Shown here piece by piece: positions 4,059-46,378 of a stretch of 46,378 nucleotides of DNA. The position numbers were made by a program, and so were the translations under genes. The DNA lies in IMG/VR virus record IMGVR_UViG_3300044807_000119, positions 1 through 46,378 of that record; one strand, 5' to 3'. Numbering within the stretch: position 1 is the stretch's first letter; the number at the start of each line of letters is the position of its first letter. This stretch comes from a virus. Below the pieces are notes generated by a model that saw only the letters and a program-made list of their open reading frames with translations, was not told the origin of the DNA and searched no databases.

Positions 4059-4148
4059 TCACATCGGCTCGTTGAAATCGGCGATCAGGAGATCCAGCGT
4101 GGCTTCGGCGCCGGCGCAGCCGGCCAGCGCGAGGGTGATCCTACGCAT
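4059..4148 (-). CDS. Very small predicted lipoprotein, 29 aa
   Basis: ATG at 4148 overlaps the end of the upstream holin-like gene. Translation begins MRRITLALAGCAGAEAT: a short basic N terminus, a hydrophobic run and an LAGC lipobox, then about 18 residues ending NEPM and a TGA. Small outer-membrane lipoproteins next to holin and membrane coiled-coil genes are typical of the Rz1 class of outer-membrane spanins. This one would be unusually short and its hydrophobic core is brief. Real gene status is uncertain. Confidence 0.4.
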   Translation of the reverse strand: MRRITLALAGCAGAEATLDLLIADFNEPM

Positions 4149-4440
4149 GGGGTTGTCCTTCCGATGGTTCGGTTTTGGTGACGGTCGCCGCGTCGGTGAC
4201 CGTGGTGGTGGTGCTGACCGGCGGAACAGCCGCAGCCGCCATCATGTCGGTTTTCTTCCGGGAATCGCTGCTTGAGCCGAGATAGAAGCCGACGGCGACC
4301 ATGACGATCGCGAACAGGGTCTGCTTGAAGTCGGCGTCGAGTGCGCCCGTTTTCAGCATGTTGTAGATGACGGCGAATCCGAACAGCCCCAAGATGGTCA
4401 GCGCGAGGACCGAAGGCATGTCAAGCTTGAAGTCTTTCAT
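4141..4440 (-). CDS. Holin-like protein with two membrane segments
   Basis: 99 aa, start ATG at 4440 with AAAGGTGA upstream. Two hydrophobic segments, about residues 10-29 (LALTILGLFGFAVIYNML) and 37-56 (TLFAIVMVAVGFYLGSS), are joined by a short loop and followed by a Ser/Lys turn and a Thr/Ala/Val-rich tail. This is the common size and topology of class II holins, which open the inner membrane at lysis. First gene of the cassette; a GGTGCGTTGC late motif lies 71 nt upstream. Confidence 0.65.
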   Translation of the reverse strand: MKDFKLDMPSVLALTILGLFGFAVIYNMLKTGALDADFKQTLFAIVMVAVGFYLGSSSDSRKKTDMMAAAAVPPVSTTTTVTDAATVTKTEPSEGQPHA

Positions 4441-4563: not shown

Positions 4564-4716
4564 ATGAAGGAACTTGTAGCCATAGCTGCCTGCCTCGTTG
4601 TCGTCGTTTACGGGGGCCTGTACATCCATATCAGGGGTGACCGCGGGGATTGCGCAGCGAGGAACGCCCAGCGCATCGGAGGCGTGTTGCAGCATTACGG
4701 TTGCGCCGGTAGATGA
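4564..4716 (+). CDS. Small membrane protein, 50 aa
   Basis: ATG at 4564. Residues 1-18 form a hydrophobic segment (MKELVAIAACLVVVVYGG), followed by a short Arg/Cys/Gly-containing tail (DRGDCAARNAQ). It runs opposite to the surrounding late genes and ends 10 bases before the epimerase-like gene, so the two form a separate plus-strand cargo unit. No family recognised; the ribosome-binding site is weak. Confidence 0.4.
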   Translation: MKELVAIAACLVVVVYGGLYIHIRGDRGDCAARNAQRIGGVLQHYGCAGR

Positions 4717-4726
4717 GCGGTTCCGC

Positions 4727-6028
4727 GTGAGCCTATCCCGCCGCGTATTTTTGATCGGCTCGGCCGCTGCGATTGCAACGCCGGCAATGGCGAAATCGCA
4801 TGAGCATTGGCCTGCGATCGCCATCAAAAGAAAATGGGTGAAGGAACTCAACGGGCGCTTTGCCGGCACTTCCGGCATCTTCCACGACACCTCATACAAA
4901 TCGTTCCTGATCGATTACGACCCTGCCGGGAATTACCTGAATTGGGGCGCCTGGCGCGAGTTCAAAAACGACGGTGAGATTGTCATCGCCGACGACGGGC
5001 TTCCGAAAGTGCAGGGCGAGGCCGGGCCGTACTGGAATCCCGTCACGCTTTGTCATTATGCCCTGGCGCACCATGGCAAGATGACGCTCGGGAAATCGGA
5101 ATCCCGCGCGCTGTTTTTCAAGGCCGCTGACAAGCTGATCGAGTTGCAGCAGCCGGGTGGCGGATTTCCCTATCCACCGCTTGCGCACCGCGAGTTCAAA
5201 CTGCCTGCAGGCTGGATCAGCGGCATGGCGCAGGGCAACGCCTTAAGCGTTTTCTATCGCGCATGGCTGCTCGAAAAGGATGCCCGGTATCTCCGCGCGG
5301 GCGCGCTGACCTTCAAAAGCCTGATGACGCCCACGAGCAAAGGAGGCCCGGCCACCACGCTTGCCGATCTTCACCCTTCGCTTTCGAGCTACCCGTTCCT
5401 TGCCGAGTATCCGACGTCGCCGATCGACTACACCTTGAACGGTTTTATGTTCGCGATCCTCGGCCTCTACGATTGGTCGCATGTGTCGCAAAAGGCTTCC
5501 GTGGCCTTCAATCGAAATATCGAAACGCTGGAACGCCTGCTGCCCTACCACGACATCGACGGCTTCTCCACTTACGATCTGTCGCATATCGTCTTGAAGC
5601 TCGCCCCATACGTCGCGGCGCCCTATCTCGGCATCCATGTCTATCTGTTGCGCGCCTTGGCCGGCATCACCGGCAGCGCGACGTTCAACCGCTACGAGCG
5701 GCGCTGGACCGCGAAAATCGACAAGATGAACCGGGAGTTGCGGATCACCGCAATGTCGTCGGACGTCCAATCCCCGCAGCCCGCAGGCACGACGATAACC
5801 TTTCAGATCAAGACCGAAGGCGGCAACGGCGGCGACCTGCTCTATCAGTTCGGCATCAAGCGCGGCACCAAATGGACAATGGCGCAACCGTTCTCGCCGT
5901 CCGACACTTTCGCATGGACACCGCAAGAGCCGGACAATTACATCATCGGATTTTATGCCAGGGAAGCCGGATCGCCGCGCGAGTTCGACAACTTCCGCTA
6001 CCGGGCTTTCAGCATCACGGGCCGATAG
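4727..6028 (+). CDS. Tat-exported D-glucuronyl C5-epimerase-family protein
   Basis: 433 aa, GTG start chosen because it places SLSRRVFLIG, a twin-arginine signal, at the N terminus. The signal continues into a hydrophobic run and an AMA-K cleavage site. The body matches the C-terminal domain of glucuronyl C5-epimerases, enzymes that invert C5 of uronic acids within polysaccharides: WISGMAQGNALSVFYRAW (about 163-180) and FLAEYPTS followed by LNGFMFAILGLYDW (about 224-250). The last 90 residues form a beta-rich, Tyr/Trp-rich module of a surface-protein type (YQFGIK, FAWTP, NYIIGFYARE). The gene faces against the late genes and lies between tail spike and lysis cassette, a classic cargo position. 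It probably acts on host surface polysaccharide; the substrate is unknown. Confidence 0.82.
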   Translation: MSLSRRVFLIGSAAAIATPAMAKSHEHWPAIAIKRKWVKELNGRFAGTSGIFHDTSYKSFLIDYDPAGNYLNWGAWREFKNDGEIVIADDGLPKVQGEAGPYWNPVTLCHYALAHHGKMTLGKSESRALFFKAADKLIELQQPGGGFPYPPLAHREFKLPAGWISGMAQGNALSVFYRAWLLEKDARYLRAGALTFKSLMTPTSKGGPATTLADLHPSLSSYPFLAEYPTSPIDYTLNGFMFAILGLYDWSHVSQKASVAFNRNIETLERLLPYHDIDGFSTYDLSHIVLKLAPYVAAPYLGIHVYLLRALAGITGSATFNRYERRWTAKIDKMNRELRITAMSSDVQSPQPAGTTITFQIKTEGGNGGDLLYQFGIKRGTKWTMAQPFSPSDTFAWTPQEPDNYIIGFYAREAGSPREFDNFRYRAFSITGR

Positions 6029-6031
6029 GGA

Positions 6032-9000
6032 TCAGCGCCACCGCCGCGCTTCGATCTTGCCATAGGCCGAGGTTGTGCTGACCGCAAAGCCGACCTGGGC
6101 TACAAGATAGATCGTGGTGGTGGCGCTGATATTGAATCTTCGGCACGGCGGTACCGAGCTTACGCTTGAGTTTCCTACCCCGCCGAAGATCGCTACGCCG
6201 GCATAATTCTTGTTCGTTTGATCGGTCGCGCTTGTCGGCAACGTCGCCGAAGTCGAATTCAGCCCGGCGTAAGCATAAGTCACCGTCGTTGTGGCTGCGC
6301 CCGTAAGCCCGAAATTTCCACATACATGCCAATCACCGGCTGTCAGCGATTTGCTGGTCACGTTCGCCAGCGTGTTGTTGGTCAGAGCGACCGGCGATGC
6401 GAGTTCAACCACCACGGACTGAAACTCGCCGAGACTGCCGGCGCTGGCATTGCTCGCATCGGTGACGCCAACGATGTCCGGCGTGGTGATCTGCGGCGAT
6501 GTCCCGAACACCGCGACGCCGGTGCCGGTTTCGTTGGTCAGGGCGGCGGATAGGTTCGCGCTGGTAAACGAGCCGAGAGATGTCGCATTGCCGACGCTCG
6601 TGATCGCGCCCGTCGAGTTGGCGTTGGTGGTGACGTTGCCGGCGGTCAGACCCGCCGCCGTTCCGGTCAGGTTGGTAGCCACGCCGGATGCCGGCGTGCC
6701 GAGGGCTGGCGTAATGAAGGTGGCATTCGTCGCCGTGAGACCGGCAATGTTGACGCTAGAGATGGCGGTGCCGCTACCGCGCGTAACTGTCATCCATGTG
6801 GTGGCGGCACTGTTCGCATCATTGACCGCCCGAAACAGCAGGGCCGGTGCGCCTTGGGTAATGTCCCAATTTTTTTGATCGACGCCATTACTCGACATGT
6901 TCCACGCATATGTCGGTGCCGCGCCAGTCACCAAGAAAGCAGCATTTGATCCAACGCCGGTCACATTTCCCGTCTGCTGGCCGGTCCATGAATGCGCGGT
7001 CGAGAACACGTCCGCATTGAGCATCGCGGAGGTGACTTTGGTCGCGCCGATCGCGAGAGCAAGCGACCCGGCTGAGTTTGTTACATCGCCCGTGTGCGCG
7101 GGGAAATTCGCGGCCGGCAGCGTGACGAAATTTCCGAGGGTGCCGGCGTTATTATAGAGCAGAGCGGTATTGGTGCCGCTGGTGACGGTGGTGGTGCCGA
7201 CAGTAATGTTAGAACCCGACGCACAAGTCGGGCATGAAATATTTCCTGTGCCGGCGGTAATTACCAGCGGGGCAGAAGCGGTCACGGCTGGCGTGCCGCT
7301 GCTTGAGCCAGGCGCCCAGGTCGGCGTTCCGCTAGGTGGCGGGTTTACCCGTAGCGATTGCCCGAGGCCGTCGGCAAGGTTGAGCGACGCCCACCCAAAG
7401 CCTGCAATGCCCAAGCCGGTCCCACCATTGACTGAGGGCATGACGGTGCCGTCAAACCTGTATCCGTTACTGGCAAGCTCGAACAGCATTTGGTCGCCGT
7501 TCTCGCGAATGCGGATGCCGCCGTTGCCCCAGTCGACCGATTTGGCGGCGGCCATGAAGTAGCTGCCGAACGGAATTGAGGCGCTGCCTACATCAGGATT
7601 GCTGATGTTCGCCGCGCCCGTGAACGAGCCGCCGGTGCAGGAAAGCGTGCTCCAAATGGGCCAGGCCGTGATCGCGCCTACCGCGGACACGCAAACATCC
7701 GACGCGCCGCTGATATTGGCAGACCCGAGCACCTTGATCGTGCCGCCGGTTATCGCGTTCTTGATACCGTTCACCATGAAGCCACTGGCATCGGCGATGA
7801 ATGGATCATGGAGAATCACATCGGTGCTGGCGCTGGAAAGCAGAATGCCCCAGCGTCCCGCGTTGGCCGTATTGGGCTCGCGGATGATCGGCGTGATATG
7901 GATGTTTTTCGAATTGGTGGCAGTGATCAGGACCGTGTCCTGACTGCTGCTCTTTGAGTCCAGAAAAATATTGACGTCCCTTACGCTGTCGCCCTGGATG
8001 GCAACCGCCTCGACAGCGAACTGCACCTGAATATTTGCGGTGACGTTCGTAAGCGGCGCGAACGTCTGTCCCCCAAGGGAAAGGCCGCGATTGACGTTGT
8101 ACCCGACCCCCGCCAGTTGAATGTTCTGCAAGCCGACGGCAGCGTTAAGCGTGCCGATATTGAACATGTTGCCGCCGATGTTGTCGGCGCTGACGTTGGT
8201 GGCTGTGAAATTGTGCGGGTTGACCACCGAAATCTGGTCTTTGACGCAATCCAGCGCGAGGTTGGAGCACGAAAAGCCGGTGATGACGATATTGCCGGTG
8301 CCGCCATAGAAGCCATGCTGGCCCGGGATGTTGTACGCGCGCGTGCTCGTTATCTGTCGGGTCAGTCCGGTGGTCGATACGCCGTAATTTCCGAAACTCA
8401 ATCCCTGCGCCACGCCGGTGACCGTCGCACCGTTGATGTAGAGATTGTCGATCGCGCCGGCGGTGGTGTGATCGGCCAGACTAATGCCGTACTGATGATT
8501 GGCTTGCGACGTGATCGGCGTCGAATAGAGGTTGGTGCCTTCGATAAAGACGTCGTTGATGAAAATCCCGTTGCCGCCAAAAATCGCGATACCGTTCGTC
8601 CCGTTATTTTTGGTATGGACGCGATTGATGTACAGGTTGGTGCACGCGTCGCATTGGATTGCCCGGTCGTTGTGGCCGCTAATCCCGCCGTCGCCGCCCC
8701 ACTCGCCTGCGGGGCAAGCCGCTGTCACCGCCTGGCCGATGTTGCCGCAGAAGGTGCCCTCGCCGTACAGAATGCCGCCGCTGATAATGACGTTCGCTAC
8801 GGACGATCCGTAGAAAATCCTTGCTCCCCGCGTGTCCTGATGCAGAAACGCGCCCGCGTCCATCTCTATCCTCAAATCGCTGTGCAGGGTCAGCTGGGAC
8901 GTGAGCTTGTAGTTGCCGTAGGCGATCCGGATCTGGTTGTTAGCGGTGATGCAGGCCTGCAAAGCTGCGGTGGCGTCGGTCGCGCCTGTGTTGTCCGCAC

Positions 9001-9718
9001 TGCAGACAACGATGCTGCCGAGGCACTGTTTCAGGTTGCCGACCGTGCCGTCGGCGCAGATCGTCGCGCTGTCGACCAGCGGCAGCCGAACATTGCCGGT
9101 GCCGCTGCTCGACCGGCAGACCGGCGTCTTGCCGTCAACGTCGAAGCCCAGGAAGCCCCCGGAACAAATCGGCGGCAGCGGCAGCAGGCCGACCCCCTGC
9201 ACGCCCGGCGCGAATACCAGCGAGCGGCCGGTGAAGTCGTTGGTCTTGTCGTAGAGCTCGCGCAGCGTCGCGGTGGTGTCGGTCAGGCGCAGGTTGAGAT
9301 CGCGCGCCGGTGCACCGCGGCTTTCGGAGAACTGCGAGGTCTGCCGCGGACGGCGGGCGCCGACGATCTGCACCGTCCCGGTCTGCGGCGAGGTGAATGT
9401 CAAGACGGCATTGGTGATCGGCCGGGCGAGATTTGAAAATGGGCCCGACGGGCTGGTTAGCGTCCAGCCGTGGGACGGATCGGTGGAATTGACGCGCGTC
9501 CCGTTAACGAAAACCTCGATCCAGCTGGTGAAATCGGTCCCGTCGCCGTACAGCGCGAAATTGACCGCGCAGGCGCAGGTCGAGGTTGTGAGGCTGTAGG
9601 ACTGCCGGCGCTCGGTATCCGGCAGCGCCGGGACCGGTGCGGGGACTTGCGCAAAAGCGGGCGCGAGGCCGGCGGCGAGCACAAGGGCGAGGATGGCGCG
9701 GCGGATGAGATTTCCCAT
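6032..9718 (-). CDS. Tail spike/fibre with T7-like N-terminal domain and beta-helix
   Basis: 1228 aa, the receptor-binding virion protein. Residues 1-23 look like a Sec signal peptide (basic start, RRAILALVLAAGLAPAFA), which is unusual for a tail fibre. Residues 35-160 resemble the T7 fibre N-terminal attachment domain (SWIEVFVNGTRVN, later GTVQIVGARRPR). From about 239 (GATDATAALQACI) to about 670 is a right-handed beta-helix of pectate-lyase type, common in depolymerising spikes. A Thr/Asn/Gly-rich repeat shaft follows (ALGTPASGVATNLTGTAAGL). The last 125 residues end AYGKIEARRWR, a widespread phage tail C-terminal module. The start codon lies in a strong hairpin, and a late motif lies 31 nt upstream. 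Confidence 0.88.
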   Translation of the reverse strand: MGNLIRRAILALVLAAGLAPAFAQVPAPVPALPDTERRQSYSLTTSTCACAVNFALYGDGTDFTSWIEVFVNGTRVNSTDPSHGWTLTSPSGPFSNLARPITNAVLTFTSPQTGTVQIVGARRPRQTSQFSESRGAPARDLNLRLTDTTATLRELYDKTNDFTGRSLVFAPGVQGVGLLPLPPICSGGFLGFDVDGKTPVCRSSSGTGNVRLPLVDSATICADGTVGNLKQCLGSIVVCSADNTGATDATAALQACITANNQIRIAYGNYKLTSQLTLHSDLRIEMDAGAFLHQDTRGARIFYGSSVANVIISGGILYGEGTFCGNIGQAVTAACPAGEWGGDGGISGHNDRAIQCDACTNLYINRVHTKNNGTNGIAIFGGNGIFINDVFIEGTNLYSTPITSQANHQYGISLADHTTAGAIDNLYINGATVTGVAQGLSFGNYGVSTTGLTRQITSTRAYNIPGQHGFYGGTGNIVITGFSCSNLALDCVKDQISVVNPHNFTATNVSADNIGGNMFNIGTLNAAVGLQNIQLAGVGYNVNRGLSLGGQTFAPLTNVTANIQVQFAVEAVAIQGDSVRDVNIFLDSKSSSQDTVLITATNSKNIHITPIIREPNTANAGRWGILLSSASTDVILHDPFIADASGFMVNGIKNAITGGTIKVLGSANISGASDVCVSAVGAITAWPIWSTLSCTGGSFTGAANISNPDVGSASIPFGSYFMAAAKSVDWGNGGIRIRENGDQMLFELASNGYRFDGTVMPSVNGGTGLGIAGFGWASLNLADGLGQSLRVNPPPSGTPTWAPGSSSGTPAVTASAPLVITAGTGNISCPTCASGSNITVGTTTVTSGTNTALLYNNAGTLGNFVTLPAANFPAHTGDVTNSAGSLALAIGATKVTSAMLNADVFSTAHSWTGQQTGNVTGVGSNAAFLVTGAAPTYAWNMSSNGVDQKNWDITQGAPALLFRAVNDANSAATTWMTVTRGSGTAISSVNIAGLTATNATFITPALGTPASGVATNLTGTAAGLTAGNVTTNANSTGAITSVGNATSLGSFTSANLSAALTNETGTGVAVFGTSPQITTPDIVGVTDASNASAGSLGEFQSVVVELASPVALTNNTLANVTSKSLTAGDWHVCGNFGLTGAATTTVTYAYAGLNSTSATLPTSATDQTNKNYAGVAIFGGVGNSSVSSVPPCRRFNISATTTIYLVAQVGFAVSTTSAYGKIEARRWR

Positions 9719-9740
9719 GGCGGGAAGGTTCCGCCATGGG
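9714..9740. promoter_or_regulatory. Perfect 10-bp inverted repeat containing the tail-spike start codon
   Basis: Arms CCCATGGCGG (9714-9723) and CCGCCATGGG (9731-9740) enclose a 7-base loop. The minus-strand ATG of the tail-spike gene (9718-9716) is inside one arm. No clear Shine-Dalgarno sequence is present; the loop reads AACCTTC on the mRNA strand. The hairpin could hold back translation of the spike, or act as a weak processing or termination element between the 1354-aa protein and the spike. Confidence 0.55.
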
Positions 9741-9749
9741 ACTCGGCTC

Positions 9750-9759
9750 GCAACGCACC
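9750..9759 (-). promoter_or_regulatory. Late-region motif GGTGCGTTGC, copy 2 (tail spike)
   Basis: Exact minus-strand match, 31 nt upstream of the spike ATG and 10 nt before the start-codon hairpin, in the 46-base gap after the internal virion protein gene. The following bases GAGCCGAG agree with copies 4 and 7. Confidence 0.7.
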
Positions 9760-9764
9760 ACGGA

Positions 9765-12700
9765 TCAATGCCGCTCTGGCTTGACCTTCATCTCGATGCC
9801 GAAGGCGTTGTTTCCGGCGGCTTCCACCTGATTGAACAGCCCGCGCAGGTAAAACACGTTCTGGCCCGCCACCAGCCGCCGCAGAGCCTTGGAATCGGCC
9901 TCGCTCCATTCCGACGGCTTCGACGCCCCGGATGCCACGCTGAGGATGCCCTGAATTTTGCCTGCCGTCGGGCCGAGCAGCTGATCCATCGCCGACCGCG
10001 AGGCAAAGCGGGACAGCGGCTTGTCGGCTCCGATCATGCGGTAAATGTCGAGCCCGCCCCGGGTCGCCTTGGACGCCATGGCGTTCGCCTCCTCGAACCA
10101 GCCGAGCAGGTTACCCTTCGATATGGCTTCCTTGATCCAGTCTTGCGGCTTGTCGCTGGCCGGGGCGCCGCCGGTGAGCGAGCCGATCTTGTAGGACAGC
10201 ATGCCGAGGCCCATGGAGAAGATCAGGCCCTGCAAAACCTGCGCATCCCGGCGCTGCAGGTTCGCAATCAGGATGCGCTCGTTCGCCGCAGCCGTGAAGC
10301 TCTTAAACTGCCCCATGGCGTTGACGACCTGCTGGGACATCCACAGCGGCTTTTCCTGCCCCGGCGTCACCACGGAAATATCGGCATCGCGCGCCACCGC
10401 GCCCTCGAACACGCGGCGCGCCTCCTTGTCGGTCCAGTCGGCGGTGTTCGGCAGGTGCACGCCGTCGCGGACTTCGCCGCCCTTCTCGAACGCCTTGGCG
10501 ATGCGCTCGGCCATGTGCGGCTCGATGCCGGATTCGCCGAGCGTCCGCAGCATCCGCGCCGAGGCCGTGCCGCCCGCCGCCGCCTTGGCCGCGCGCAGGA
10601 TCTCCGAACCGGCCACCAGCGAGGCGTTGATCTTGGCAAAGTCGGTCCACGGCCCAAGCAGGTTGACCATCTGGAATTTGCCAGTCGCCCATTGCATCGT
10701 GCGCTCAAGCCGGTTCTGCGGATGATAGCTGTCCAGCGTGTCAGTCAGCGCATGGTGACGTTGGGCCAGCACTGATTCCACGGCGATGCCCATGGCGCGA
10801 TACTGCCGCCCGGCCTCTTTCCAGATGTCGTCCTGCCGGGTCAGCATCTTGAAAAACGGCACCCATGCATCGTTGAAGGTGTTGACCAGGCCGTGCCGCA
10901 TCACGGTTCCCGCCATGTCCGGCAGCGACGACAGCGCGGCCGAGCCGAGCGAGGTCAGCACGTTGTAGTTTTTGATGACGGCGGTGGTGCGGGCGATGTT
11001 GCGCAGCGGGCCTTCCGGGGCGATGCCATAGACGCCGCGGATGCGGTCGCGGATGTCGGCCAGATCGCTGATGACGCCCTGCCGTTCGGTTTCCAGCGCG
11101 GTGCGGGCCTTGTCCGACTTCGCCGACGCCGACAGCGCGGCATATTCATCGTTGATCTTGCGGAACGCCTCGGTCATCCGGACGTCGCCAAACTTCTCGG
11201 TCAGCAGCACGTCGGGCACGATGGTGCGCAGATGGGTGGCCACGATGTGGTCGATGTTGTTTTCGAGGAAGTCGCGGATCGTGGCGTCGGGAATATTGAA
11301 CTCGCGCGCCGCAAGCGGGCCGCGGGGCGGTTCGCCGCCGCCCTTGAAGCCGATTTCGGGACCGCCGTTGCCGATGTCATAGGGCAGCCGGCCGTCGGGC
11401 GAGCCGATGATGCGGTCGGTGATCTGGTCGGCACGGCCCTGCAACTCAGCACGCTCAAGGTCGCGGGGCGATTTAAGGATATCGGCCACCGCGCTGTCGA
11501 CCGCCTTGTCGGCCGACGTAAGTCTTTCGTCCTTGCCTTTGTAGGTTCCTGCCGCCTTCTGTGCCTCGCGCGCCTTCACCGCCTCGGCCCGGGCTTTCAG
11601 AGCTCTTTTGGCCTCAACCGTCGTTTTGCCATCCCACGCCCCGATTTCCTTTTCGATCTTGTCGCGCATCAGATCATGATTCTGGATTTCCTCGGCGAGA
11701 TGGCCTTCCAGTTTCTCGATTTCGGACAGCTTCGCGGACGCGCGGTCGGCCAGCAGGTTTCCGCGCTCGCGGGCCAACGTCTCGAATAGCGCGCCGCCCC
11801 GGGCCTTTTCGATCCCCTTTCCTGGGACGTCGACGCGAATTCCCCCGTCGTTACGATATTGAGATTCCCGAAGTTGTTCGGAACGACGGTTCGCGGCCTT
11901 GTTGAAGCGCGTGGTTTCTTCCTGCCGCGCTGCAATGACATCGGTATCTTTCGACAACCTGTCGATTTGGCCTTCCAGCTTCTCAATGGTCGCACGATGC
12001 GATTCCAGCGCGCCATGGAACAGCCCGATGCGCTCCTGTGCCTGCGCCTTGGCAGCTTGGTCGCCGGCGAGCCAGTCGGTCACCCGGTTGACAAACTCCG
12101 GACGGCGCGCCGCGATGGCCTGCTTGTTGTAAAGGCGCTGCATATAGCTGTCGGCGGTTTTGACATCGACGCCCTCGGGCAGCAGTCCGGCATCGATGGC
12201 GCGTTTTTTCCACGGCTCGAACACGTTGTTGCGGACGAACTGCGCGGCCATCTGGACCTGCGGGATTTCGTGCACGTCGCCATTGCGGCCGGCATCGGTC
12301 ACCGCCTGCGCGAATTCCTGATAGCTCATCTTGCCCGGTTCGCCGCGGCCTGTGATGCCATCGAACAGTGCCTGCGCGCGTGGGGCCATCTTCTGCTCGC
12401 CGTAGCGGTATTCGGAGAACAGCCGCGACATCTCGTCGGTGTGCGCGACCTGCAGCTGGTTGATGAACAGCCGGGCTTCGCGGTCGACTGCCGGGCCCGC
12501 CGTCGTCACCTTGCCCTCAAGGTTCTCCTTCATCAGCAGCGCCGTCTCGCCGAGGTCCGCGCCGGTGCGCCGGGCCGTGACACTCTCGGCGCCAAACACC
12601 CGCTGCATCGGCGAGGTCTTTTCCACAACGGTGCGGACGCCGGGGATTTCGGACAGGCCGAACGGCACGAGTTCGATCTTGCGGGTGTCGGATGCGGCGG

Positions 12701-13829
12701 CGCCAGCGGCAATTGCGTATCCGGTGCCGGTTGGCGCGCTTCCCGGCTTTGATATGTTGAGGCCATCGACGCCGAATTTTGAGCGAAAGAAGGCGTTTCC
12801 TTCCGTGGTCCTCGGCGAGGTTGATATCGGCGTGTTTGGAAACTCGTCGAAAATATCGTTGACAAGCTGCGCGGCGTACCCTTTCCGGCGAGCCTGCGGG
12901 AGCGTTTCTATTTTCTGAATTGAAATTCCGTGTTCGTCGTTCAGAATGATATGCGCCTGCGCCACTACATGATCGCCGACCGTGACGGTTTTTGTGCCCA
13001 TCTGCGCGCCCGGCCCATAATCGTACAGATTACCGGTCGCGCTGACCGTCCCAACGCCAGCGATATCATCCGACACTTTCTGGCCGTGAAAATCGACATC
13101 CTGAAAGTCCGGCCGTGGCTGTGGCCGGCCGACACCCGGATTCCCCGCGTGTTCGTTGACCGCCGCGCGGTCGGCGTGCAGCTGGGCCTCGATCTTCACG
13201 CGCTCGGCAGGGCTGAGAAGTCGCACCGCCGCACCGCCGAGCAACGCCGTCAACAGCGTGCCGCTGGCGACGTTGATGGCCGATTCCTCATAGGTGCGGG
13301 TTTGCTGGCTGGCGTGCAGCAGGGCTTCCTGCGCGACGGTCTGCAGCAAGCCGGCCTTGCCCATTTCGACGGCGGCCTTGGTGAAGGTCAGGCCGCCCTT
13401 GGCCGCGTCGATCGCTACGCCCCCGGGCAGCAGCATGGTCGGGTCGAGCATGCCGGCGACGGTCTGCGCGACGAAGCCCATCTTGCCGTTGGCGGCGAGC
13501 AGTTTCCGGTCGCGGGTTTCGGCGTCGATCTGGTCCTTGATCGACAGCGTTTCCGCCGGCGATTGCGAGCCGACGAACTTCTCGCCGTGTTCGAGGAAAT
13601 AATTCGGCTCCTTCCAGCCCTTGATATCGCCGACCGGGTTGTAATCCGGCACCGGGGCAAACGAGCCGGAATTGCGCATGGCGTGAAAGGCCGACATGAC
13701 GCTGTTGGATTGCCGAAACGCGGCGCCGAACACGTCGGACGGATCGGCCTGCGCGGCTGCTGTCGGCGCGATTCCTTCCTCGGCGCGGTAGCCGAACGCG
13801 GGATCGGGGGCGACGTCGATGGCGGTCAT
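9765..13829 (-). CDS. Giant internal virion (ejection) protein with embedded GNAT-like domain
   Basis: 1354 aa, in the position and size class of T7 gp16, the internal core protein ejected into the cell envelope with the DNA. The N-terminal 200 residues contain hydrophobic helical stretches (MGFVAQTVAGMLDPTMLLPG, then GTLLTALLGGAAVRLL). About residues 250-360 form an acetyltransferase-like fold: a beta strand VVAQAHIILND, an IQKIETLPQARRKGYAAQLV segment with the acetyl-CoA loop, then STSPRTTEGNAFFRSKFG. The rest is long, helical and charged, with coiled-coil stretches (about 600-760) and a C-terminal helical part. The GNAT assignment is from motif reading. Its presence inside an ejection protein suggests an enzyme delivered with the genome. 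Confidence 0.78.
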   Translation of the reverse strand: MTAIDVAPDPAFGYRAEEGIAPTAAAQADPSDVFGAAFRQSNSVMSAFHAMRNSGSFAPVPDYNPVGDIKGWKEPNYFLEHGEKFVGSQSPAETLSIKDQIDAETRDRKLLAANGKMGFVAQTVAGMLDPTMLLPGGVAIDAAKGGLTFTKAAVEMGKAGLLQTVAQEALLHASQQTRTYEESAINVASGTLLTALLGGAAVRLLSPAERVKIEAQLHADRAAVNEHAGNPGVGRPQPRPDFQDVDFHGQKVSDDIAGVGTVSATGNLYDYGPGAQMGTKTVTVGDHVVAQAHIILNDEHGISIQKIETLPQARRKGYAAQLVNDIFDEFPNTPISTSPRTTEGNAFFRSKFGVDGLNISKPGSAPTGTGYAIAAGAAASDTRKIELVPFGLSEIPGVRTVVEKTSPMQRVFGAESVTARRTGADLGETALLMKENLEGKVTTAGPAVDREARLFINQLQVAHTDEMSRLFSEYRYGEQKMAPRAQALFDGITGRGEPGKMSYQEFAQAVTDAGRNGDVHEIPQVQMAAQFVRNNVFEPWKKRAIDAGLLPEGVDVKTADSYMQRLYNKQAIAARRPEFVNRVTDWLAGDQAAKAQAQERIGLFHGALESHRATIEKLEGQIDRLSKDTDVIAARQEETTRFNKAANRRSEQLRESQYRNDGGIRVDVPGKGIEKARGGALFETLARERGNLLADRASAKLSEIEKLEGHLAEEIQNHDLMRDKIEKEIGAWDGKTTVEAKRALKARAEAVKAREAQKAAGTYKGKDERLTSADKAVDSAVADILKSPRDLERAELQGRADQITDRIIGSPDGRLPYDIGNGGPEIGFKGGGEPPRGPLAAREFNIPDATIRDFLENNIDHIVATHLRTIVPDVLLTEKFGDVRMTEAFRKINDEYAALSASAKSDKARTALETERQGVISDLADIRDRIRGVYGIAPEGPLRNIARTTAVIKNYNVLTSLGSAALSSLPDMAGTVMRHGLVNTFNDAWVPFFKMLTRQDDIWKEAGRQYRAMGIAVESVLAQRHHALTDTLDSYHPQNRLERTMQWATGKFQMVNLLGPWTDFAKINASLVAGSEILRAAKAAAGGTASARMLRTLGESGIEPHMAERIAKAFEKGGEVRDGVHLPNTADWTDKEARRVFEGAVARDADISVVTPGQEKPLWMSQQVVNAMGQFKSFTAAANERILIANLQRRDAQVLQGLIFSMGLGMLSYKIGSLTGGAPASDKPQDWIKEAISKGNLLGWFEEANAMASKATRGGLDIYRMIGADKPLSRFASRSAMDQLLGPTAGKIQGILSVASGASKPSEWSEADSKALRRLVAGQNVFYLRGLFNQVEAAGNNAFGIEMKVKPERH

Positions 13830-33726: not shown

Positions 33727-34016
33727 GCTGCGAGCCTTTCCCGGCGCCACATGTCGATGATGCTGACCACCGTGGATTCCGACAGCCGGACGATCTTGGC
33801 AATCGCCGCGCTATCCTTCCGCGCGCCGTGCAGCACGATTGTCGCCGCAACCTGGTCGTCGAGCTCGGGGTCGGGCTGCACGCCGCAGCGCGAGGCATAC
33901 GCGGCCTCGAACAGTGCCTTGGCATAGGCGGTCGCCTTGTAGCCGTGTTTGTCGGCCTGCTTTTCGAGGGTGGCATACACGCGGTCGTCGACGCTGAAAT
34001 TGATCTGGCGGGTCAT
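33723..34016 (-). CDS. Two-domain DNA-binding protein (ribbon-helix-helix plus HTH)
   Basis: 97 aa from the ATG at 34016, which overlaps the methyltransferase stop. Residues 1-40 read TRQINFSVDDRVYATLEKQA then YKATAYAKALFEAAY, an Arc/MetJ-type ribbon-helix-helix. Residues 60-95 (DSAAIAKIVRLSESTVVSII, DMWRRERLAA) look like a helix-turn-helix. Two DNA-binding elements in so short a protein are unusual. Probably a repressor of early genes; target unknown. Confidence 0.7.
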   Translation of the reverse strand: MTRQINFSVDDRVYATLEKQADKHGYKATAYAKALFEAAYASRCGVQPDPELDDQVAATIVLHGARKDSAAIAKIVRLSESTVVSIIDMWRRERLAA

Positions 34017-34606
34017 GCATCCCTCCGTAACCACCGGACCTCAGGCGAGCCGTCGTAGCCGCGCAGCCACACGAACCACGCATAGTCCGTGGTGCCGTTG
34101 CCGGGCTTGTCACCGGCCGCCAGAACGTGCCCGGGAGGCATCGAGGGGCGCGGGGTGATGAAATAGACGCGGCGCAACGGCGTGGCTGCCAGCATCCGCG
34201 AGCGCTTATCGCCCTGCACCCAATTGGCGGGCAGCAGCAGCGCCACCTTGCGATGCGAGTTTTTCAGCGCGCGGGCCAGGAAAGCTTCGGCCAAGGCGAA
34301 CGGCGGGTTGCACACGAAATTGTCGTGGCAAGATCCCGACGTCAGAAAATCGCCCATGCTGTAAAGTGGGAATCCACGATCCACGGTGTCAAAGGCGATG
34401 GTGTCGAGACCAACCGCGGCCGCGCTCCGGATTATGTTGCCACCGCCCGCCGCCGGGTCACAGATCGTGCCCTCGAACTTTTCTTCCTCGAACAGGCGCC
34501 GCGAGCACCATTCCGGCTCGACGTACCAATCATCGGCTTCCCGGGCCCACAGGTTGCTCTCTCGCTTGCGCAGCGGACCGCGCAGGGGTGCGGTTGCTCC
34601 GGTCAT
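34013..34606 (-). CDS. DNA methyltransferase (adenine- or N4-cytosine type)
   Basis: 197 aa. SAM-binding motif TICDPAAGGGNIIRSA (about residues 45-60) and catalytic motif VCNPPFALAEAF (NPPF, about 99-110) define an amino-methyltransferase. A later YFITPRPSMPPGH segment and a C-terminal DYAWFVWLRG strand match phage enzymes of this class. No partner nuclease is adjacent, so it is an orphan enzyme, probably for protection from restriction or for regulation. The start overlaps the rusA stop. Confidence 0.82.
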   Translation of the reverse strand: MTGATAPLRGPLRKRESNLWAREADDWYVEPEWCSRRLFEEEKFEGTICDPAAGGGNIIRSAAAVGLDTIAFDTVDRGFPLYSMGDFLTSGSCHDNFVCNPPFALAEAFLARALKNSHRKVALLLPANWVQGDKRSRMLAATPLRRVYFITPRPSMPPGHVLAAGDKPGNGTTDYAWFVWLRGYDGSPEVRWLRRDA

Positions 34607-35007
34607 CCGCACGGCCTCACAGTCACGCGGCAGCCGTACGGCGCCCTGCCCCACTCGACGACGATGCGGCGCATGTGCTTTGGGGAATCGTCCTCGATCA
34701 GCTCAATGCGCCTGAGATAGTCGATCAGCGCCTTGAGCCCGTTGTCGAGGTCGATCCGGGTCTGATGCTCGTCCAGCGCGACGATCAGTTCAAACCGCGG
34801 AATCTTGATCAGCTTGAGCGGGCTGATCGTCCGGCCCTTCGCCGCCAGCACATACGCATCCGCCACATTCGACCACGCCTTCATGGTCCGCACCGCCGCC
34901 CAATCGACGCGGCGCGTGCGGTTGACCGACGGCGGCACCGGGAGATCGAGAACGATATCCGGCGCCACCGCGAACGGCGGATCGCTGTATGACGGCTGCG
35001 CGTCCAT
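34603..35007 (-). CDS. rusA: RusA-family Holliday junction resolvase
   Basis: 134 aa, ATG at 35007 in a TGATG overlap. The RusA pattern is clear: DLPVPPSVNRTRRV at the start, then FELIVALDEHQTRIDLDNGL with the catalytic acidic residues and the DxDN motif, followed by IELIEDDSPKHMRRIVVEWG. It cuts four-way DNA junctions made during phage recombination and replication, clearing branches before packaging. Works logically with the YqaJ/RecT pair on the other arm. Confidence 0.9.
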   Translation of the reverse strand: MDAQPSYSDPPFAVAPDIVLDLPVPPSVNRTRRVDWAAVRTMKAWSNVADAYVLAAKGRTISPLKLIKIPRFELIVALDEHQTRIDLDNGLKALIDYLRRIELIEDDSPKHMRRIVVEWGRAPYGCRVTVRPCG

Positions 35008-35935: not shown

Positions 35936-36013
35936 TGGTTGCAGGGGTCGGATTCGAACCGACGACCTCATGGTTATGAGCCACGTGAGCTACCGGGCTG
36001 CTCCACCCCTGCG
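35936..36013 (-). tRNA. tRNA with CAU anticodon and initiator (fMet)-type features
   Basis: Minus-strand cloverleaf with encoded CCA (35938-35936), T arm GTCGG-TTCGAAT-CCGAC, anticodon loop CTCATAA (CAU at 35978-35976) and D arm GAGC/GCTC. Initiator marks are the A11-U24 pair in the D stem, the C1/A72 mismatch if the 5' end is at 36013, and G-C pairs next to the anticodon loop. Two of the usual three G-C pairs are kept; the third is U-A. There is one extra G between acceptor and D stems compared with standard fMet tRNA, so the mature 5' end may be 36012 or 36013. Confidence 0.85.
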
Positions 36014-44845: not shown

Positions 44846-45099
44846 GCACACCCTCCCCCGACACGCTCGAGCGCGAAAAAGACAAGCTCTATCTCCTGGA
44901 TTCGGAGCTGATCCGGCGCCTTGGCGTGCCGGCAAAGACCTTCCGAACCATGGTCCCGGCGCTCGAGAGCAAGTTCGGCTTCCCCGAAAAGGAGCCGTTA
45001 TTTGGTGGACGGCGGTACTGGCCGGCGGTCAAAGCGTGGCTGGACAAGCGCAACGGGCTTAAGGTGGGCTCCCCAACCCGGAGGAACCCCAATGACTGA
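44842..45099 (+). CDS. Excisionase-like (winged-helix) protein
   Basis: 85 aa, GTG start overlapping the previous stop. LLDSELIRRLGVPAKTFRTM, then SKFGFPEKEPLFGGRRYWPA and VKAWLDKRNG resemble the AlpA/Xis type of winged helix, with the GGRRYW wing. It lies immediately before and overlaps the integrase gene, where excisionases usually are. It would steer the integrase toward excision. Assigned by fold pattern and position. Confidence 0.7.
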   Translation: MSTPSPDTLEREKDKLYLLDSELIRRLGVPAKTFRTMVPALESKFGFPEKEPLFGGRRYWPAVKAWLDKRNGLKVGSPTRRNPND

Positions 45100-46378
45100 C
45101 GAACGGAAGCCGCCGCAGATCGACGACGCGCCGGGCCTTGTCTGGCGCGCGCGCAAGGCCGGCTGGGTGGCCACATGGCAGGCGCGGTCGGACCTGATAG
45201 CGCTCGGCTACGCGCCACAGACGGCCCGCCTATGGGCCGGCGCGGAGCCTACGGCGATCGAGGCCAATTCCATCGCTACACAGTGCCGCCGGCTGCAATC
45301 CGATATGCGGATTTACGCCCAGGCCGGGGATTACGCCGCCGACAAGCCGGCCCTGACGATCGCCGCCTTGATGGCGAAATATCAGACTGATCCGGTTTCG
45401 ACCTATCACGCCAAGCGGTTTGCGGTGCGAAAGAACCACGACATCACCTATCGCCGCATCGTCGAAATCCATGGCGAAGTCGAGTTGACCGAGATCAGGG
45501 CTCGCCTGTTGCTCGAGTGGCATCAGCAATGGAGCGGCGGCGGCCAGAAGATCGCCATGGCACACGCCTTCATCGGGCATCTGCGGACGCTTTTTGGATT
45601 CGGCGCTACCATGCTCGAGGATCCAGAGTGCGAGCGGTTGTCGGCCGTGCTGCACCGAATGCGGTTCCCGACGCCGCGGCCCCGAACCGAGCGCCTAACC
45701 GCAGAACAGGCCATGGCGGTCCGCAAGGTGGCTCGAGAGCATTTCGGATGGCGGTCGATCGCGCTGGCCCAAGCGCTGCAATTTGACCTGATGCTGCGGC
45801 AAAAGGACGTGATCGGGGAATGGGTGCCGACGACGGAACCGGGCCTCAGCGACGTTACCAAACACAATGAAAAGTGGGGCCGGGTGAAGGGTGTCATGGT
45901 CCGCGTTGAGAACACTGAGAAATGGCTGCGCGGCCTGCGCTGGTCCGAGATCAACGAAAACATGATCCTGAAACACAACACCAGCAAGCGCGGGAAAGAC
46001 CTGACCGTCGATCTTAAGCTGGCGCCTATGGTCCTCGAGGAGCTTGAACTCGGCATCGTCACCCGGAGTGACGGCGGCCCGATGATCATCTGCGAGGTGA
46101 CCGGCCTGCCATACACAACCGCCGAATTCCGCCGCAAGTGGCGGCTGGTCGCGGACAAGGCCGGGCTCCCCAAGACCGTCAGGAACATGGATTCGCGGGC
46201 CGGCGCCATCAGCGAAGCGACCGACGCCGGGATCGACATGGAGCATATCCGGCACGCCGCCACGCACAGCAACATCAGCATGACCCAGCGCTATTCTCGA
46301 GGGTCAGACGACAAGACGGCGAACGTGCAGCGGCTCCGGCTCGAGCATCGGAACAAACCTAAAACGGGCAATGACTGA
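45092..46378 (+). CDS. int: Tyrosine recombinase (phage integrase)
   Basis: 428 aa from the ATG at 45092 with GGAGGAAC upstream; stop at the window end. The N-terminal arm and core-binding part are about residues 1-200. The catalytic domain shows LMLRQKDVIGEW with the first Arg (about 236), KHNTSKRGKDLTVDL with the Lys (about 296), NMDSRAGAISEATDAG with the second Arg (about 369), HAATHSN, and the nucleophile in TQRYSRG (about 400). The usual HxxR box reads MDSR, lacking the His, a form seen in some rhizobial phage integrases. Integrates and excises the prophage, here apparently at comEC. Confidence 0.92.
   Translation: MTDERKPPQIDDAPGLVWRARKAGWVATWQARSDLIALGYAPQTARLWAGAEPTAIEANSIATQCRRLQSDMRIYAQAGDYAADKPALTIAALMAKYQTDPVSTYHAKRFAVRKNHDITYRRIVEIHGEVELTEIRARLLLEWHQQWSGGGQKIAMAHAFIGHLRTLFGFGATMLEDPECERLSAVLHRMRFPTPRPRTERLTAEQAMAVRKVAREHFGWRSIALAQALQFDLMLRQKDVIGEWVPTTEPGLSDVTKHNEKWGRVKGVMVRVENTEKWLRGLRWSEINENMILKHNTSKRGKDLTVDLKLAPMVLEELELGIVTRSDGGPMIICEVTGLPYTTAEFRRKWRLVADKAGLPKTVRNMDSRAGAISEATDAGIDMEHIRHAATHSNISMTQRYSRGSDDKTANVQRLRLEHRNKPKTGND

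Follow-up and report, generated by a model that had tools for sequence, protein, structure and literature searches.

Why should a virus carry, next to its tail spike gene and against the direction of its virion genes, a member of the D-glucuronyl C5-epimerase (GLCE) family, which is best known from heparan sulfate biosynthesis? The question is raised by a gene in the IMG/VR virus record IMGVR_UViG_3300044807_000119, all 46,378 bases of which are called here the window. Similar enzymes are encoded beside the tail-spike gene in many phages, which suggests that these phages rewrite the sugar coat bound by their own spikes. The answer that we favor, with a probability of roughly two in three, is lysogenic conversion: the product would be an exported uronate C5-epimerase that acts on polymers.

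The gene is located on the plus strand and most likely starts at a GTG codon at position 4727, giving a protein of 433 amino acids (4727..6028); the earliest possible in-frame start is a TTG at 4598. A preliminary description of the locus had placed the start at 4564. However, the ATG at 4564 is in the wrong reading frame and was therefore rejected. It opens a separate plus-strand ORF of 50 amino acids with a hydrophobic N-terminus (4564..4716), which stops 10 nt upstream of the epimerase, gave no match in family searches and is possibly carried on the same transcript. The first 22 residues of the epimerase, VSLSRRVFLIGSAAAIATPAMA (4727..4792, plus strand), contain an S-R-R-V-F-L motif, a hydrophobic stretch marked by a hydropathy peak and an A-x-A site followed by KS, in agreement with the twin-arginine (Tat) export signal noticed earlier. 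A strongly hydrophobic N-terminus is found in 12 of the 13 phage enzymes tabulated.

Residues 156-328 (5192..5710, plus strand) match the catalytic domain C5-epim_C (PF06662) with 161.7 bits (E 1.9e-47), the curated cut-off being 23.3 bits. A sequence search of the PDB retrieved human and zebrafish GLCE at about 4e-28 to 5e-27 (3.7e-28 for 6hzz). In a structure model built with 15 relatives, the predicted core, for which pLDDT is mostly >90, adopts the alpha/alpha-barrel of GLCE and superimposes on human GLCE (6hzz) over 263 residues, with an rmsd of 2.1 Å and a Z score of 31.6. GLCE, at 31% identity, stands isolated at the top of the PDB fold comparison, the next fold having Z 16.6. The catalytic residues of the human enzyme are E499, Y500, N510, Y560, and Y578 (PMC13308652). 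In the alignment, they correspond to E227-Y228 (5405..5410), N238 (5438..5440), Y283 (5573..5575), and Y300 (5624..5626) of the window protein, all on the plus strand, and the five residues are identical; Y283 and Y300 are invariant across all aligned phage and bacterial relatives. The profile and structure searches and the inspection of the catalytic tyrosines that had been proposed for this protein thus lead to the GLCE family and to no other, and by sequence and model its membership is clear. The profile score, together with independent relatives found in the same position in other phages, rules out a chance match. A search of BFVD with the model gave no match at E <= 0.001, and PHROGs contains no family for the epimerase. 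A protein with a GLCE fold might nevertheless be a lyase or a hydrolase of uronate polymers. Abstraction of the C5 proton is common to lyases and epimerases, and the alpha/alpha barrel is shared, though far more weakly, with GH76, GH88, and polysaccharide lyase folds; but GLCE is the only match at the level of Z 31, with 31% identity and none of the five catalytic residues missing, which makes such an activity very unlikely.

The catalytic domain is followed by an extra C-terminal domain (residues ~333-430; 5723..6025, plus strand), which is probably a beta-sandwich. Support for the surface-type module of the preliminary description is weak: the NCBIfam model of a “triple tyrosine motif” protein matches this region in part only, at 5e-10 and well under its own cut-off, and the structure model has low confidence here.

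The minus strand of the window carries a T7-type virion block, with tail, internal virion and major head proteins, a head-tail adaptor and a terminase. The closest GenBank relative of the adaptor is only 40% identical. An integrase gene (44921..46378, plus strand; PF00589 3.1e-7, phrog_1 4e-15), which extends past the contig end, and RecE/RecT genes are present, showing that the phage is temperate. Comparison of the two window ends revealed no common repeat. The window also encodes a cytosine C5 DNA methylase (892-1578), an HNH endonuclease (1865-2434), a second DNA methyltransferase (34013-34654) and, on the minus strand, a tRNA-Met (CAT) at 35936-36013, which is either a phage tRNA or an attachment-site remnant.

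Within this genome, the epimerase is an accessory gene opposed to the late operon, at the boundary between spike and lysis genes, as had been described. On one side is a minus-strand gene for a small membrane protein that is holin-like by sequence (4141..4440; weak profile match to DUF2273, 0.0023). On the other side, a tail spike or fibre gene (1228 aa, 6032..9718, minus strand) converges on the epimerase, with stops at 6028 and 6032 separated by a 3-nt gap. The GC content of the epimerase gene is slightly below that of the phage genes (59% vs. 62-66%), as might be seen if host DNA had been joined through mis-assembly or an imprecise prophage boundary. However, phage genes are found on both sides, the gap to the spike is minimal, and other phages, some of them finished GenBank genomes, carry relatives in the same surroundings, so that this origin is barely credible. 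A promoter scan upstream of the epimerase showed no sigma-70 consensus, the scan being blind to other promoter types; we counted the missing sigma-70-type promoter against conversion.

The spike itself is recognized by its C-terminus (phrog_11393, tail fibre C-terminus, 4.1e-11), the last 12% of the protein matching fibres of Dickeya and Enterobacter phages. Its N-terminus has a weak pectin-lyase-type motif, weakly shared with spikes of the LKA1/D3 type, and a Pfam search with the spike fragment gave no match even at E 1, neither to the pectin-lyase-like domain of the LKA1/D3-type Gp49 (PF22442) nor to any other family. Modelled alone, it reached a pLDDT of 39, a fold too poor to use, and no relatives of it were found in IMG/VR. 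The weak support for a beta-helix was also counted against conversion.

Relatives of the epimerase were reached in steps. Searching GenBank phages by tblastn with the window protein gave no match, but an IMG/VR search gave the record L002, at 38% identity, from which further relatives were obtained by using L002 as an intermediate and by alignment. The set now comprises 16 GenBank phages, 15 of Pseudomonas aeruginosa and one of Bradyrhizobium elkanii, and at least 19 IMG/VR records beyond the window (L002 + 17 + 1). All representative relatives examined score over the Pfam cut-off of PF06662, and in GenBank the phage proteins are annotated as hypothetical. The preliminary description knew of no phage using this activity. 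Indeed, no phage-encoded GLCE-type epimerase was found described in the literature searched, where subscription papers and preprints were thinly covered; yet the gene is far from unique, since unannotated relatives occur in many phages.

These relatives nearly always adjoin a spike or fibre gene, and this recurrent adjacency, seen in L002, L011, L013, L015-L017, Pseudomonas phage CF23a and Bradyrhizobium phage ppBeUSDA76-1, was counted for conversion. In L002, the epimerase, with its stop at 10840, converges on a beta-helix spike gene (10847-13096); in L015 the convergent partner is a T7-type fibre and in L017 a TSP-Ig-type spike. In L016, its neighbours are a Gp49-type spike on one side and a T7-type internal virion protein on the other. 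A 320-aa Kelch-repeat-like protein (9504-10466) separates the Gp49-type spike from the epimerase in L014. Strict coupling of spike and epimerase is not claimed. Indeed, in L020-L025 the epimerase adjoins a different fibre and just 29 amino acids of a D3-type spike are left, which counts against conversion, and in L026-L028 it adjoins an Rz spanin close to the integrase, the fibre genes being two or three genes off. The L020-L025 remnant (about 7555-7641 of each locus) matches the C-terminus of the D3 spike and is located just 5′ of the epimerase, as if the cassette had travelled with the tail end of the spike.

Orientation bears on when the enzyme is made. In L011, L013, CF23a, and ppBeUSDA76-1, the epimerase is co-directional with the spike or tail protein gene and just downstream of it, so that it could be a late gene in several relatives. 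Such an arrangement would fit a role in the lytic cycle, in which the enzyme is made late, along with the spike, and either modifies the receptor chains of dying cells and debris, keeping progeny from being trapped, or makes the polymer cleavable by the spike; the Bradyrhizobium phage copy, which has no export signal, would fit it as well. However, the window, L002, L014, L015, L017, and L018 have it on the strand opposite to the spike operon, as expected of independently expressed cargo. We consider a lytic-cycle role unlikely, also in view of the D3-like phages discussed below.

In a phylogenetic tree, three groups are distinguished: a Pseudomonas-phage family; the Bradyrhizobium phage copy; and a group that unites the proteins of the window, L002, and L011 with bacterial ones. 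Long branches make the finer order unsure. This separation points to repeated acquisition. The near-identical proteins of L015 and L018 adjoin unrelated fibres, and thus the gene also moves between phages. In most members of the Pseudomonas branch, the position of human Y500 is occupied by M or A in the alignment; their chemistry may therefore differ from that of GLCE, which counts against conversion, and the substitution perhaps reflects a different sugar. The window enzyme, which keeps the canonical five residues, may act on a GlcA-like residue. Bacterial relatives are found in polysaccharide gene clusters, one of them with a nucleotide-sugar dehydrogenase. In the order of Pseudaminobacter, a convincing PF06662 match is present in only 2 of 397 genomes, the others having short partial matches.

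The most informative setting is that of the D3-like Pseudomonas phages. D3 is the classic seroconverting phage of P. aeruginosa. From spike to endolysin, its genome carries iap, oac, wzyB, and an HNH gene, and in phi297, Fyn8, PP9W, Marin, and FBPa19, wzyB, in some cases with iap or oac, separates the same spike from the lysis genes or the integrase. Seroconversion by the D3-type WzyB/Iap unit has been proven (PMC4815439, PMC7168646). CF23a, whose spike shares 95% identity with the D3 spike, has the epimerase in place of iap-oac-wzyB between spike and lysis genes. The two genomes align at 94% until the spike stop and the alignment breaks there; past the cassette, they share a 62-nt block, and alignment resumes at the genes downstream of the lysozyme. 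In L018 and L019, where the spike is 83% identical to that of D3, a WzyB (90% identical) and the epimerase are both in the slot. A related gene thus occupies the exact slot of proven seroconversion, which supports the proposal that the locus serves lysogenic conversion. The same comparison weighs against a lytic-cycle role, since the CF23a gene stands in for conversion genes that are expressed in the lysogen, and since the related lytic phage LKA1 makes do with no cargo gene beside its spike. In the window, tblastn with iap, oac, and wzyB of D3 gave no match. D3, the closest experimental parallel, belongs to a different phage lineage, which counts against conversion.

Two further genes in such positions were encountered. 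In Pseudomonas phage vB_PaeP_FBPa19 (L045:3283-4437), a “phosphatidate cytidylyltransferase” beside the D3-type spike shares 95% identity with WzyB of D3 and is, judged by this likeness, a misannotated seroconversion polymerase. The temperate Variovorax phage VarioGold, which has a distantly LKA1/D3-like spike, encodes just past its lysis genes an O-antigen-ligase-family protein that is 31% identical to WzyB (L046:9106-10230) and is a candidate for another seroconverter.

The cargo might also play no part in phage exclusion and instead benefit the host, through changes in capsule or exopolysaccharide that bear on attachment, contact with plants or desiccation. A benefit of this kind was proposed in the preliminary description, and the location of bacterial homologues in polysaccharide gene clusters speaks for it. 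However, it leaves unexplained both the recurrent spike adjacency in unrelated phages and the replacement of receptor-conversion genes in D3-like phages, and we regard it as distinctly unlikely. For lysogenic conversion, the analysis shows the family, the fold, the active-site residues and the export signal, as well as the temperate genome and the recurring place in the spike/lysis slot; we infer the catalytic activity, the polymer concerned, expression by the lysogen and an exclusion phenotype. The enzyme would leave the cytoplasm of the lysogen via the Tat pathway and act, within the periplasm or on the cell surface, on host O-antigen, capsule or exopolysaccharide chains that are already complete, inverting a uronic acid at C5, for instance from GlcA to IdoA. 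The phage's own spike, the product of the adjoining gene, would then no longer bind or cut the altered chain. The lysogen would thereby be protected when identical or similar phages try to superinfect it, and progeny would cease to be trapped on debris.

D-manno and L-gulo uronates are C5 epimers, and a phage C5-epimerase beside a lyase spike could therefore alter the very residue that is attacked. Among the serotypes of P. aeruginosa, the Gul form is assigned to O2 (and O18). The LKA1 spike is a lyase that cleaves the O5 antigen by beta-elimination at its 2,3-diacetamido-mannuronic acid residue (PMC5701251). It is related to the D3/CF23a-type spikes, with 32-33% identity. According to the legend of Fig. 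1 in PMC4815439, the serotypes of serogroup O2 have identical biosynthesis clusters, and their repeats are drawn with either guluronic or mannuronic acid. A wider reading, which we hold to be evenly poised between true and false, is that C5-epimerases acting at the polymer level form a class of phage seroconversion enzymes that is widespread but has gone unrecognised, having been acquired at least three times; in P. aeruginosa, they would be the missing genes behind the Man/Gul difference within serogroup O2. If so, WzyB alone would give the beta-linked Man form (O16), the epimerase alone a Gul form, and both together the O2 form.

In known phage receptor conversion, groups such as glucose or acetyl are added or the polymerase is swapped. 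Lysogenic receptor conversion is thus already known, and what would be new here is the chemistry. If the proposal is true, receptor conversion would gain a further route, the inversion of a single ring carbon in a completed chain, which needs no donor substrate and is aimed at the carbon attacked by uronate lyase spikes, and the GLCE family would be tied to phage exclusion. An old question, that of the genes outside the common O-antigen cluster behind the Man/Gul variants of serogroup O2, would be made testable. These phages would also be a source of new uronate epimerases for glycan engineering.

How does the window enzyme compare with known systems? With human and zebrafish GLCE (6HZZ, 4PW2), it has in common the catalytic domain, the fold, the five catalytic residues and a non-cytoplasmic location. 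It differs from them in its much smaller size, in the absence of most N-terminal beta domains, in having a Tat signal, in its C-terminal module and in being encoded by a phage. The alginate epimerases AlgG/AlgE also invert C5 at the polymer level, from Man to Gul, using an unrelated beta-helix fold; to our knowledge, they are not phage-encoded. The gtrABC and Oac cassettes of P22 and Shigella phages, often located near tail or att genes, convert the phage's own polysaccharide receptor in the lysogen by adding glucosyl or acetyl groups and leave the configuration of ring carbons as it is. RED65_08024 of Bermanella marisrubri is the one characterised bacterial GLCE-type enzyme and likewise a prokaryotic, polymer-acting one (Raedts 2013, summarised in PMC4432689). 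It is bacterial, with no reported link to a phage spike, whereas the window enzyme is encoded by a phage gene beside the spike. Finally, the iap/oac/wzyB unit of D3 occupies an analogous slot between spike and lysis genes in a temperate phage and alters the O-antigen recognised by the spike. It changes polymerase linkage and O-acetylation instead of inverting C5. As the window carries none of its genes, it is not a member of this type and has only the logic of the slot in common with it.
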